From NCBI GenBank assembly GCA_016208105.1, contig JACQYS010000009.1, forward strand, positions 62,001-126,000: a stretch of 64,000 nt of DNA, written 5' to 3'. A program made the translations under genes and the position numbers. The first letter of the stretch is position 1, and every line of letters begins with the position of its first letter. Below the pieces are notes generated by a model that was not told where the DNA came from, made no database searches, and was given only the letters and a program-made list of their open reading frames with translations. This document shows, piece after piece, positions 36,267 through 39,529 of this stretch. The stretch comes from Desulfovibrio sp. GTDB lineage: Bacteria; Desulfobacterota; Desulfovibrionia; Desulfovibrionales; Desulfovibrionaceae.

Positions 36267-36478
36267 GCTTTGCAGGAGATAGTCCCGAGGGTGGATGCTG
36301 TCAACGCGGTAACGGGCCGAAACCCTTTCAATTCTGTAACCTGAAGGAAAGGAACCTGTAATGCAGAGACACGTAGCAGAGGTGCAGCGCGAAATGGCCG
36401 CGAACGTCACTGTGAACGGCTGTTTGGCAGTGTTTTAAAGACGATTCCAACATGGTCGACAACCCAAGGAGAATTGAG

Positions 36479-36637
36479 ATGAAAAAGGCTGTTATTCTCG
36501 CCATTGTTTCCTGCTTCCTGATGAGCTCCGTTGCCTTCGCCTTCCCCACCAAGGACACCTCCGACAAGGGCTCCTACACCGAGCAGATGGCCAAAAAGAA
36601 GAAGAAGTCCAAGAAGCCCGCGACCACCCAGTCCTAA
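36479..36637 (+). CDS. Small exported Lys-rich peptide
   Basis: 52 residues from ATG 36479 after AAGGAG. MKKAVILAIVSCFLMSSVAFA is a good signal peptide with cleavage at AFA/FP. The mature part is only ~31 residues, very basic (MAKKKKKSKKPATTQS). It is read divergently from the response regulator and ends at its own strong terminator. Function unknown; a small envelope-stress or metal-related protein controlled by the adjacent regulator is one possibility. Confidence 0.75.
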   Translation: MKKAVILAIVSCFLMSSVAFAFPTKDTSDKGSYTEQMAKKKKKSKKPATTQS

Positions 36638-36734: not shown

Positions 36735-37919
36735 TCAGGCGCCGTAACGATCACGGAGTATACGTGCCGCTTGGGCAATGCTTGTTATCTTGGCCGCAGC
36801 AACATTCTCCACGTTCACGCATCTGTTGGCGAAACAGCCGAAGCCGCAATCCGTGTTCAAAAATACCTGGGACGGTTTGTAGAACCGCAGTGCGGACTCA
36901 GCCCGAGACACGATCTCTTGCGGGGTTTCCACTTCCGTGGTGCGCGGATTGACCACTCCCAGGCCCAGCTCGCGCGGGGTGTCCGTTCCCGGAACCAGTC
37001 CGGACAAAGCCCGCCCCACCACTTCGATCTCACCTGCCCTGGGTGTGGCATACTCCAAAACGAACTGCCGCACCCGCATGTGAGCCAAGGCGGGCAGCAG
37101 GGGCCGATAGTCTCCGGTAAGAAGAACCTCTTCCTTGGTGCTCCAGTTACCCCGGCAGACGTGCAGGCCGATGCGGGGGCCGTCAATACCATCGATCACC
37201 TTGTTGATCAGTTCCGCCGCGTAGGCCAGTTCTTCACCCACATCCCGGCGGGTGGCGAGCGTCGCTCACATGAAGGTTCGTCGGCCGCACTCCCCGCTTA
37301 AAACCACCTCGGTGAGCACAGGCTCATCGAACTGCACGAATTCGCAGCCCGCCAAGGCCAGGTCGCTCAACTCTTCGCGTAACAGCCGGACCACGGCGTC
37401 ACCCATCTCACGCTGGCTGGCGTAGGCCTTCTTGGTATAGGCGCTCACCCACATGGACCGGGTGAGCAGGTACGGCCCGGGCAGAGTGATCTTCACGGGC
37501 TTGTCCGTGATGGACTTGACGAAATGAAAGTCCTCCAGGGCCAGGGGCTCTCTGCGCTCGAGCCTGCCCGTGCAGGTTGGGTTGCGGATGGCCGAAGCGG
37601 GGACATCCAAGGTGGTGAGCATTTCCTCAAACCCGGACTTGTCCTCCATTTCATCGAGCATCTCGGCCAGGGACATGAGCCTGGTGCCATCCACCTTGTC
37701 CGTGATGAAGGAATAAAAGTTGTCGCGGCGATGCTCTCCGTCCACCACAACGTCCAACCCGGCCTCTTCCTGAATGCGCACCGTGCGGCGGACCTCTTCG
37801 TCAGCGATGCGGCCGAACTCGGCGCGGCCCATCCGCCCGGTGCGCCGGTCCCGCAACGCGCGCAGCATCTCCTTGGAACGGGGCCAGCTGCCGACCTGGG
37901 TGGTGGTGAATGCGGTCAT
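36735..37919 (-). CDS. MetE-like methyltransferase with an in-frame TGA: candidate selenoprotein
   Basis: Read as one frame, 395 codons: 217 residues, TGA at 37268-37266 (codon 218), then the same frame to 36735. The family is short (C-terminal) cobalamin-independent methionine synthase: TTQVGSWPRS, PGPYLLTRSMWVSAY and VQFDEPVLTEV before the TGA. After it lie all zinc-ligand candidates: H253 and C255 (GLHVCRGNW), E289 (VLEYATPRAGE) and C358 (NTDCGFG). The context is RRTFM-TGA-ATLATRR; I recall Cys at that place in relatives, unverified. Its ATG overlaps the OsmC-fusion stop by 4 bp. If the TGA is a true stop, the gene is a pseudogene and its product lacks the metal site. Confidence 0.75.
37227..37268 (-). 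promoter_or_regulatory. Candidate bacterial SECIS element after the in-frame TGA
   Basis: Reading the minus strand from the TGA: 11 bases, then a 5-bp stem CACCC / GGGTG closing a 10-base loop that begins with G (GCCGGGATGT). Loop position (16 bases after the TGA) and the leading G agree with the loose bacterial SECIS consensus. A competing mini-hairpin, GCGA-CGC-TCGC, starts at the base after the TGA. The stem is short, so support is modest. Confidence 0.4.
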
Positions 37920-38683
37920 GCTATGGCGAAGGAGGTTTTTAATTCCACGGCTTTGGCCAAGGTGGCGGCGAGTGGAGAACGGGCGACCGTTCGCTCCCAG
38001 GCGGTTCTGGCTTTTTTCTCATCGTCCAGCGTGGAGGCGAAGCAGCGGACCTCAATGGCGCTGAAGGAGGGATCGCCCTCTTCCATGCCCAGATGAGCCA
38101 GGATGTTGTTCAGGCGTCCTTTCACGGTGATCTCGATGTCATCCATCTCCAGGGAGTCCCGCGAACACTCGGTGGCATAGCCCGTGGCCAATGCGGCTCC
38201 CAGAGCGCCCAACAACCCTTCCACCGCGCAGGGGTTTCGGTCGCGCTCCTCGAAACTGGCCGGTTGCCCCAGCTTCCAGGAGAAATTTCGGCAGTAGACA
38301 GTGCTGGTCTGGTTTTCCCCGGCCCGGACCCGAAGCCGCCATTCGTATTGCCTGGCCCGGGCCTTGTCCTCTTCCAGGGCGCGGCGCTCGGACTCTTCCG
38401 AAGCCTCTGGCGAGGCATTGTCGCCACGGCGCAGGAAGTAGCGAACGCCCGTGTCCCCGGGAAGGCTCCCCAGGAAATCGTGCCCGGAAAGCCTGCACCA
38501 GGGAGGAAGATCGTCGGCCACGGTGGGTTCGCGGCTTATCATTTCCAGCACCTCTCCGGGAGGCACTTTCAGCATGTGTTCCCTGATGAGAAGGGCCAGC
38601 CCGGAGCCGCAGTCCAGATCGCCTCCGTCAAAGATGCGGCTTGGAGCGAGGAGGGCTAATTCATTACTCGCAGATGTGGACAT
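37916..38683 (-). CDS. TusA-OsmC fusion protein
   Basis: 255 residues. Residues ~10-85 are TusA/SirA-like with active-site Cys in DLDCGSGLALL and a PPWCRLSGHDFLG element. Residues ~130-255 are OsmC/Ohr-like (NFSWKLGQPASFEERDRNP, then CAVEGLLGALGAALATGY), with the two redox Cys positions C (NPCAVE) and C (ATECSRD). TusA moves persulfide sulfur; OsmC domains reduce peroxides or handle thiols. The fusion suggests sulfur relay to a thiol enzyme. 84 bases after dsrE; its stop overlaps the MetE-like start. Confidence 0.85.
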   Translation of the reverse strand: MSTSASNELALLAPSRIFDGGDLDCGSGLALLIREHMLKVPPGEVLEMISREPTVADDLPPWCRLSGHDFLGSLPGDTGVRYFLRRGDNASPEASEESERRALEEDKARARQYEWRLRVRAGENQTSTVYCRNFSWKLGQPASFEERDRNPCAVEGLLGALGAALATGYATECSRDSLEMDDIEITVKGRLNNILAHLGMEEGDPSFSAIEVRCFASTLDDEKKARTAWERTVARSPLAATLAKAVELKTSFAIA

Positions 38684-38767: not shown

Positions 38768-39133
38768 CTAGTAGGCAACGCAGGGCGAACCCGAGCACAG
38801 CCACTCCACCAGCACGGCTCCGCCAGCGGGCGTGGCCCCATCGATGAGGTCCGCCTCGGAAAGCCCGCGCTTCTTGAGGCATGGGGTGCACACGAACACC
38901 TTTCCTCCAGCGTTCACGAACTTTCCGATGAGTTCCTTGAGGGGTGCGAACGGCGCGCCTTCATCGATCTTCTCCGCCTCGCCCTTCACGGCGCAGTACA
39001 CGCCGTCGGTGGAGAGAAATACCATGGTGTCCTTATCGCTTCCCAGTGCGGCATTGGCCACAACGAAGCCCAGCGTGGCCTTGTCGCCGTCCGTGCGGCA
39101 ATGGGTGATGGTGACGCAGAACTTCTCAGCCAT
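38768..39133 (-). CDS. DsrE-family sulfur-transfer protein
   Basis: 121 residues. DsrE/F-like fold with VVANAALGSDKDTMVFLSTDGVY and a Cys pair in KVFVCTPCLKKRGLSEADL. Cytosolic; such proteins carry sulfur between TusA-type proteins and acceptors. Its start overlaps the upstream TusA-like gene by 8 bp. Confidence 0.88.
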   Translation of the reverse strand: MAEKFCVTITHCRTDGDKATLGFVVANAALGSDKDTMVFLSTDGVYCAVKGEAEKIDEGAPFAPLKELIGKFVNAGGKVFVCTPCLKKRGLSEADLIDGATPAGGAVLVEWLCSGSPCVAY

Positions 39134-39392
39134 GTTCCCTCTCCTTCTGTTCGGGTTTTAGTTCAATCAGGTAGAACGGGTGCGCGCGATCAAGAAGCGT
39201 GTTGCGGGTCATGCGGCACCATGCGGGAAACTCCACGGGAGCGGCGGGATCCTTGGAAATGAGCATGAGCCTTGTCCCCGGGGCCAAAGGCTTCACATAG
39301 GAATGCAGGTTGATGATGACCCGGCCGCAGGACTCATCCCCGCTGTCGAATTCATCGTCGAAAACCCAATGTTCAGGGTAGGATTCGGTCAT
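39126..39392 (-). CDS. TusA-like sulfurtransferase
   Basis: 88 residues from ATG 39392 (AGGGG just upstream). SGDESCGRVIINLHSYVKPL carries the active-site Cys, and FPAWCRMTRNTLLDRAHPF is the second conserved block, both like the TusA part of the downstream fusion. First gene of the sulfur-handling operon. The longer frame (start 39476) lacks family similarity in its leader. Confidence 0.8.
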   Translation of the reverse strand: MTESYPEHWVFDDEFDSGDESCGRVIINLHSYVKPLAPGTRLMLISKDPAAPVEFPAWCRMTRNTLLDRAHPFYLIELKPEQKEREHG

Positions 39393-39529
39393 AGGCCCCT
39401 GGCTCGGTTTCGAGTGTCCGCTTCTGGGAAATGAAAAACAAAGTACGGCAAAGGACAAATCGTTTGTTATCGTCAACAGATATCGGAACCATAGCCGCAG
39501 CCTATACGATAGTCATCCATCACCGACTG

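Follow-up and report, generated by a model that had tools for sequence, protein, structure and literature searches.

The window analysed here is a stretch of 64,000 nucleotides from Desulfovibrio sp. (assembly GCA_016208105.1, contig JACQYS010000009.1, positions 62,001 to 126,000 of the forward strand), and the gene in question, a MetE-like methyltransferase gene, lies on its minus strand (36735..37919; positions are those of the window). The gene runs from an ATG at 37919 to a terminal TGA at 36737-36735 and encodes 394 residues if an internal TGA, codon 218 (37266..37268, minus strand, in the context RTFM-TGA-ATLATRRD), is counted as a residue. An earlier reading made from the letters alone (the sequence-only reading) had placed both halves in one frame with this TGA as the only interruption, and the frame indeed holds no other internal stop. 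The product matches the catalytic domain of MetE (PF01717) over residues 4-360 (E 9.7e-29; 101.1 bits against a Pfam cut-off of 21). Nine methionine-synthase equivalog families of NCBIfam match as well, none of them at its cut-off (the best, NF003317, reaches 169.2 of 406 bits). We conclude that this is almost certainly a real selenoprotein gene, with selenocysteine (Sec) predicted at codon 218, because independent lines agree: the TGA is conserved in close relatives and replaced by TGT or TGC in more distant ones, a hairpin under selection follows it, the codons beyond it show coding selection, the genome has the Sec machinery, the gene belongs to a conserved cassette, and sel genes adjoin it in some other lineages. 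The candidate selenoprotein of the sequence-only reading is thus supported by Cys-containing relatives, the Sec machinery and a hairpin resembling a selenocysteine insertion sequence (SECIS), and those of its refuting conditions that computation can address did not overturn it.

Relatives were drawn from samples of the family (199 genomes), the order (297 genomes, some of them shared with the family sample) and the phylum (395 genomes), and from a scan of one genome per species across 84,980 species with two peptide patterns taken from Sec forms (CEFVQFD and TTQVGSWP). Phylum names are the submitters' labels, mostly of metagenome bins. Some match is present in 93 of the 199 family genomes, mostly a distant one (24-33% identity). 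All 13 full-length close members of this sample, the window gene included (77-100% identity), have an in-frame TGA at codon 218; the extra stops in four of the 13 are terminal stops, and a fourteenth close member is a fragment that ends short of the codon. At an E-value of 1e-25 or better, 24 of the 297 order genomes match, 21 with the TGA and three with fragments short of it. Matches in the phylum sample (8 of 395) comprise two Sec forms, one of them from the window's own genome, five Cys forms and one genome with a distant paralogue alone. The scan returned 67 loci: 48 have TGA at codon 218 (55-83% identity), 12 have Cys (ten TGT, two TGC; 50-54% identity), two have Arg (CGC; 44-47% identity), two distant ones have a gap, and three end short of the codon. 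Paralogues at about 30% identity carry various residues or a gap at the Sec position. Two isolates with names have Sec-form loci, Fundidesulfovibrio agrisoli SG106 and Desulfopila aestuarii DSM 18488.

The alignment of the TGA with Cys, which the sequence-only reading had offered as a check, is thus found in 12 of the 67 scan loci and in five phylum-sample genomes. These Cys forms are from Poribacteria, one Dehalococcoidia bin and the five phylum-sample genomes; the Cys that the sequence-only reading had placed in relatives (RTFM-Cys) is confirmed in the form [TS]FM-C. Sequencing error, for which the same reading had proposed resequencing the base, is very unlikely because the same TGA occurs in 48 loci of other assemblies. 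A sequencing error, a pseudogene and a true stop were considered and rejected, given the recurrence of the TGA in many assemblies and the selection on both sides of it. A tree of 47 rows, from a quick search without bootstrap and with a long-branch warning among the Cys rows (Sec loop columns excluded, L116 omitted), places the 34 Sec rows on one side of a branch with a support of 97 in the Shimodaira-Hasegawa-like approximate likelihood ratio test. Two state changes over the 47 rows are consistent with one change between Sec and Cys plus one change to Arg. The Sec side includes rows labelled Thermodesulfobacteriota, Bacteroidota, Acidobacteriota, Chloroflexota, Armatimonadota and Pseudomonadota.

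The ratio of nonsynonymous to synonymous substitution rates (Ka/Ks) against 13 relatives lies at 0.057-0.18 upstream of the TGA and at 0.095-0.19 downstream, with Ks near saturation in several pairs. By this measure purifying selection acts on the codons past the TGA, as it does on the 5' part. The window's genome encodes the Sec machinery that the sequence-only reading had suggested looking for, with tRNA-Sec (selC) at 79.4 bits, SelB at 366 bits, SelA at 600.1 bits and SelD at 334.4 bits, all outside the window's contig; its selD carries one in-frame TGA of its own. Across genomes, selA scores over its cut-off in 30 of 32 with a Sec form and in 16 of 18 without one; the two Sec-form genomes lacking a selA match are 81% and 73% complete. 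The window's genome also contains a second match to the tRNA-Sec family, L002 (G000:C31:58842-58931; 50.7 bits against a cut-off of 47), which may be some other tRNA whose variable arm is long.

The SECIS-like hairpin (37235..37254, minus strand) pairs 37254-37248 with 37241-37235 around a loop at 37247-37242 (CGGGAU). Its stem starts 11 nucleotides past the TGA and its six-nucleotide loop 18 nucleotides past it, with G as the second loop base; the sequence-only reading had the hairpin right, but not its start (12 bases after the TGA) or its loop (G first). The bacterial SECIS model given in section 5 of PMC13188914 describes a loop of 3-9 nucleotides with G in one of the first two loop positions, 16-37 nucleotides from the UGA, and a minimum free energy of -7.5 or lower. 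The window hairpin agrees with that section on each point (six-nucleotide loop, G second, 18 nucleotides, about -10.5 for a 22-nucleotide piece). We compared 58 gene rows (57 distinct over 48 nucleotides; L133 comes from a partial gene). In these, up to seven pairs, formed by columns 15-21 with 28-34 when the TGA is counted as 1-3, close a six-nucleotide loop that mostly reads CGKGAY. Standard pairs make up 91% of the pair cells, compared with 31-53% after a shift of one side by 1-3 columns, and none of 500 shuffles reaches the observed level of pairing. The six inner pairs all form in 46 of the 57 distinct TGA genes, five form in nine and two in two (L089 and L093), and the hairpin energy is -7.5 or lower in 54 of the 57. 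Only 0-4 of the same six pairs form in 17 Cys genes, and three in the two Arg genes.

Silent sites are restricted where the hairpin lies. Counted from the TGA, codon +5 is ACC in 56 of 58 rows, +6 is CGC in 55 of 58, +7 is CGG or CGT in 54 of 55 Arg codons, +9 is GCG in 34 of 36 Ala codons, and +10 is GGT in 47 of 56 Gly codons. Codon +8, whose third base sits in the loop, is free (GAT 32, GAC 26), and the 60 codons before the TGA and the others up to +39 mostly vary more, with exceptions that include -33, -9 and +20. Nearly all Sec forms, but not the Cys forms, keep the residues T-R-R-D and the Gly at +10, a pattern to be expected if the protein is constrained by the RNA. A covariance model for this region, run on 16 sources, finds the window site (67.2 bits), L096, L089 and L093, each of which belongs to its training set. 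The 11 non-Sec loci among the sources give no match better than E 1.9 and the SelD locus gives none, and the next match of the model (E 0.2) lies elsewhere in the window. A chance hairpin was considered and rejected: the z-score of the single gene is weak, but the slid-pairing and Cys-gene controls are clear. The evidence for the hairpin, as drawn from these alignments, is one of conservation and not of the energy of the window copy. We propose that UGA codon 218 would be read as Sec by SelA, SelB, SelC and SelD, aided by this hairpin.

Upstream of the MetE(Sec) gene on the same strand lie three genes that form a cassette with it. The first encodes a TusA-like protein (39126..39476, minus strand; start codon uncertain, Pfam TusA score under the cut-off) with conserved Cys50 and Cys87, the second a DsrE-like protein (38768..39133, minus strand) with a conserved CxxC, and the third a TusA-OsmC fusion protein (37916..38683, minus strand; OsmC over the Pfam cut-off, TusA just under it). 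The fusion gene ends at 37916 and overlaps the MetE start by ATGA, so the coupling to an OsmC-type gene described in the sequence-only reading holds. Cys50 of the TusA-like protein is present in 56 of 56 rows, some of which may be the TusA part of the fusion; Cys82 and Cys85 of the DsrE-like protein are present in 55 of 55 rows, Cys25 and Cys63 of the fusion in all 54 rows that cover them, and its Cys214 in 54 of 56. A stop was met in one of 56 TusA/OsmC alignments and in nine of 59 TusA-like ones. In the window, the OsmC- and DsrE-type neighbours have Cys, not TGA. Both DsrE and TusA/OsmC lie upstream on the same strand in 45 of the 48 named Sec loci, and 40 have a TusA-like gene further upstream too. 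The exceptions are L072, whose flank is too short for DsrE, and L094 and L096, which lack both DsrE and TusA/OsmC. The named Cys loci have DsrE in the examined flank in 6 of 12 cases, 3-6 kb upstream. In the five Cys genomes from the phylum sample, DsrE is found upstream in L141 and L142; L138-L140, where the flanks are short, have an OsmC-type match downstream alone.

Membership in this conserved four-gene cassette and the selenium operons of some other lineages go beyond what the sequence-only reading had noted. In six Poribacteria loci (L097:5490-8521, L100, L102, L104, L105 and L113) two conserved genes come after the Cys-form gene; in L097 they encode a DUF4432 protein and a 629-residue protein without a Pfam match. 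In the window, an open reading frame (ORF) for a Lys-rich protein of 61 residues with a signal-peptide-like start (36452-36637, plus strand) adjoins the end of the MetE gene; it has matches at 59-72% identity in several other genomes of the genus.

The most extensive association with selenium genes is found in a bin named Marinifilum, the same genome as L087. Here L149:2002-11136 is a same-strand run of ten genes with gaps of at most 72 bases, in the order selA, selB, Cys desulfurase, yedF, a PF11823 selenium/sulfur carrier, selD, TusA-like, DsrE, TusA/OsmC and MetE(Sec). The desulfurase family protein scores over the TIGR01977 cut-off and reaches 371.2 bits with the model of the Sec lyase SclA, below that model's cut-off of 525. 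The other two Bacteroidota loci (L155 and L156) have the cassette alone. In two bins labelled Pseudomonadota the MetE(Sec) gene stands without the TusA/DsrE/OsmC cassette: L096:4196-10720 has a gene for an ArsR-rhodanese fusion regulator, MetE(Sec), selA, selB and selD, and L094:2012-5031 has an ArsR-rhodanese gene, MetE(Sec) and selA up to the contig end. Thus selA, selB or selD adjoin the cassette or MetE(Sec) in one of three Bacteroidota loci and in both Pseudomonadota loci. In L150 the order is selD, yedF and cassette, and in L059 a YedF gene follows MetE(Sec). LysR_Sec_metab regulators over the model cut-off lie near L067, L078, L080 and L162 (in L162 about 2.6 kb upstream of the cassette). 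The examined flanks of the 12 named Cys loci contain no selenium marker (tblastn). Of 15 wider regions, six have one (L149-L152, L158 and L162); for the Cys form L152 the marker is selA alone, about 18 kb away in a region chosen for holding both.

A structure model built from 48 sequences (mean predicted local distance difference test score, pLDDT, 85.7; predicted template modelling score 0.89) has MetE-type methionine synthases as its best matches in the PDB. These are MesD (3rpd; Z 38.1, root-mean-square deviation 2.3 over 322 residues) and then Thermotoga maritima MetE (1xdj; Z 36.5), with the UroD family from Z 22.5 down. In an alignment of 48 rows (A2; 34 Sec, 14 other), four predicted zinc ligands are invariant: His253 (37161..37163; E. 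coli MetE His641), Cys255 (37155..37157; Cys643), Glu289 (37053..37055; Glu665) and Cys358 (36846..36848; Cys726), all on the minus strand like the residues that follow. The sequence-only reading had picked out these four and placed them after the TGA, and both points stand. Equally invariant are Ser11 (37887..37889; E. coli Ser433), a predicted contact of the homocysteine carboxylate, and Glu62 (37734..37736; Glu484) and Asp198 (37326..37328; Asp599), predicted contacts of its amino group; the roles of all seven residues follow those given in PMC7857596. The protein comprises the MetE catalytic half alone, and is therefore a core enzyme without the folate domain. Sec218 lies 20 residues past Asp198, in a stretch that has 8 residues in 3rpd and 29 in the profile. 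Its loop follows the barrel strand that ends with Asp198-Glu199-Pro200, past the C-terminal end of that strand; the C-terminal ends of the strands form the catalytic face of such barrels. The idea that the Sec loop corresponds to an insertion holding the substrate-contacting Tyr226 of MesD was dropped, since Tyr226 aligns just after the His-x-Cys motif (PMC7857596). No CxxU or UxxC motif is formed around Sec218. Cys116 (37572..37574, minus strand), a possible partner of the Sec, is present in all 34 Sec rows of A2 and in none of the 14 others; of these Sec rows, 31 have Cys362 and 29 have Cys211.

Because the zinc and homocysteine sites of MetE are kept and the folate domain is lacking, the protein may be a zinc-dependent, folate-independent methyltransferase that passes a methyl group between homocysteine and a partner other than folate. 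Its role might be the recycling of methylated selenium or sulfur, for example methylselenol plus homocysteine giving selenide plus methionine, where the reaction itself is a guess. In such a scheme Sec218, in the loop after the Asp198 strand, would act as a selenolate that takes the methyl group or the selenium atom, and the TusA, DsrE and OsmC proteins would serve as a relay for the released selenium or sulfur. We propose a role in selenium or sulfur recycling because the gene travels with selenium genes in several lineages and nearly always with proteins of the thiol carrier type, and we hold this role tentatively, as somewhat less likely than not. More doubtful, yet possible, is the wider idea that the cassette is an unrecognised selenium-handling module, spread over lineages that bear the labels of at least five phyla. 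In it the Sec enzyme would demethylate methylated selenium and pass the selenium to SelD. The methylated selenium could come from selenide and S-adenosylmethionine, or it could be imported. If this were the case, a selenoprotein would help to supply selenium for other selenoproteins.

Several observations weigh against these conclusions. The divergent pair L108:5652 and L109:5652 has Arg (CGC) at the Sec position, and their genomes have selA; these two proteins may differ in function. Cys forms are under-sampled, because both scan patterns come from Sec forms. The co-occurrence with selA is uninformative within the phylum, since 355 of the 395 sampled genomes have selA. As to the hairpin, pair changes on both sides are few and affect two of the seven pairs, a level that 27 of 500 shuffles reach, and the five-pair consensus from RNAalifold has one pair with such changes. 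The window hairpin alone is not unusually stable for its composition (z -1.74; 13 of 200 shuffles fold as well), and Rfam gave no SECIS family match, its one microRNA match (21 of 80 bits) being due to chance. In two Bacteroidota genes (L089:5643 and L093:5643) the hairpin is shifted, with changed arms and -1.5 kcal/mol in the fixed window, and an alternative SECIS register is possible there. As to the link with selenium, the raw tblastn count is 9 of 48 named Sec loci with a marker in the examined flank, which extends at least 4.3 kb on both sides in 29 of these loci. Nine of the 15 wider regions have no selenium marker, and none of the selenium markers is present in the 64-kb window, where the SelB-like match is a BipA-type GTPase gene. 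As to the mechanism, the region around Sec218 is the one modelled with the lowest confidence (residues 210-212 and 219-223 have pLDDT below 50).

The invariant zinc ligands and the invariant Ser, Glu and Asp of the homocysteine site, together with the missing folate-binding domain, would also suit a core methionine synthase of the MesA-MesD kind (PMC7857596). Such an enzyme would serve ordinary methionine biosynthesis, with a corrinoid protein perhaps as the donor, and the Sec would tune its reactivity or protect it from oxidation. However, no named methionine-synthase equivalog is matched at its cut-off (the 169.2 of 406 bits given above), and the cassette and the selenium operons would be unexpected for housekeeping methionine synthesis. 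An ordinary biosynthetic role is also made less likely by a MetH-type match in the window's genome (461 bits over model positions 2-867 of 1182, below the cut-off of 1010.85 bits). Overall, we regard this explanation as somewhat unlikely. The MetH-type match, L148 (G000:C23:123746-126139), has one TAG inside it.

An alternative explanation is that Sec218 is a redox or peroxide-sensing residue, forming a selenenylsulfide with Cys116 or another Cys and working with the OsmC-type partner, and that the protein has no methyl-transfer job. The OsmC and DsrE families act on thiols and persulfides, and the distribution of Cys116, Cys362 and Cys211 among the Sec rows fits this explanation. However, the Sec rows group together in the tree, so the Cys116 pattern follows one clade and may represent a single event; moreover, the zinc and homocysteine sites are kept and a CxxU or UxxC motif is absent, which makes a purely redox function unlikely. 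Sec218 could instead be an extra zinc ligand or a gate of the zinc site, as its loop follows the strand that ends at Asp198-Glu199-Pro200 at the C-terminal end of a barrel strand, but four canonical ligands are already there, and we consider this quite improbable.

That the TGA is a true stop, followed by a separate or dead gene, is very improbable: a mechanically called ORF (37241-36735) does start with GTG shortly past the TGA, but relatives have Cys opposite the TGA within unbroken genes, purifying selection acts on both parts in the same frame, the zinc site depends on the 3' part, and the hairpin is conserved just past the TGA. Alternative decoding of UGA exists elsewhere, but the full Sec machinery, the SECIS-like hairpin and the presence of Cys, not Trp, in relatives leave almost no room for a recoded or suppressor tRNA that reads this TGA as Cys or Trp.

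An annotation that reads the TGA as a stop would split the gene and hide its function. The prediction of a selenoprotein is open to direct test in culturable strains, and the operon links offer a handle on the function of the cassette. The cassette recalls YedF (TIGR03527, the TusA-DsrE selenium metabolism protein) in the domain types of its first two genes, and YedF adjoins the cassette in L059, L149 and L150; however, the TusA-like and DsrE proteins of the cassette each have a gene of their own, and YedF, where present, is encoded in addition to them. The type 1 mlp clusters described in PMC10418091 contain Mlp methyltransferases of the UroD superfamily, which are proposed there to recycle methyl selenide into methionine. 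These are of the same superfamily as the present protein according to that paper, and are likewise tied to selenium genes. The type 1 mlp clusters contain a corrinoid protein and its activase, and we saw no corrinoid protein or reductive activase among five window proteins and 20 neighbours of other loci that were scanned.

Compared with the 119 bacterial selenoprotein families in Table 1 of PMC13188914, a 2026 review, the MetE(Sec) family is similar in its single UGA, its Cys homologues, its loop 18 nucleotides past the UGA and the presence of selA, selB, selC and selD. It differs in having no UxxC or CxxU motif, and the table has no MetE or PF01717 entry; other methyltransferases are listed in it (arsenite methyltransferase, PF13649, PF01035 and the corrinoid protein HgcA). 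Section 7 of the same review notes that a thioredoxin-like fold and a redox motif are shared by most characterised selenoproteins. A literature search that covered this table and further papers found no selenocysteine-containing MetE; other databases were outside its scope, and an annotation may exist there. Since Table 1 has no such entry and no report was found in this search, the gene appears to represent a new selenoprotein family within known kinds of protein. MetE-type enzymes are among its closest known counterparts. The protein resembles T. maritima MetE (1XDJ; Z 36.5, 24% identity) in the fold of the catalytic domain and in the zinc site, and differs in lacking the N-terminal folate-binding half and in having the TGA codon. 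With the MesA-MesD core methionine synthases (COG0620/PF01717) it shares the 3rpd fold (Z 38.1 over 322 residues, 23% identity), the zinc and homocysteine residues and the absence of a folate domain. It differs in its cassette context and in an insertion of about 20 residues, relative to 3rpd, that follows Asp-Glu-Pro and carries Sec or Cys218. MesD needs MesX as a partner; the genes beside the window gene encode the TusA-like, DsrE-like and TusA-OsmC proteins. A conserved Sec in a zinc- and homocysteine-type methyltransferase of the MetE fold would be a new chemical setting for selenocysteine.

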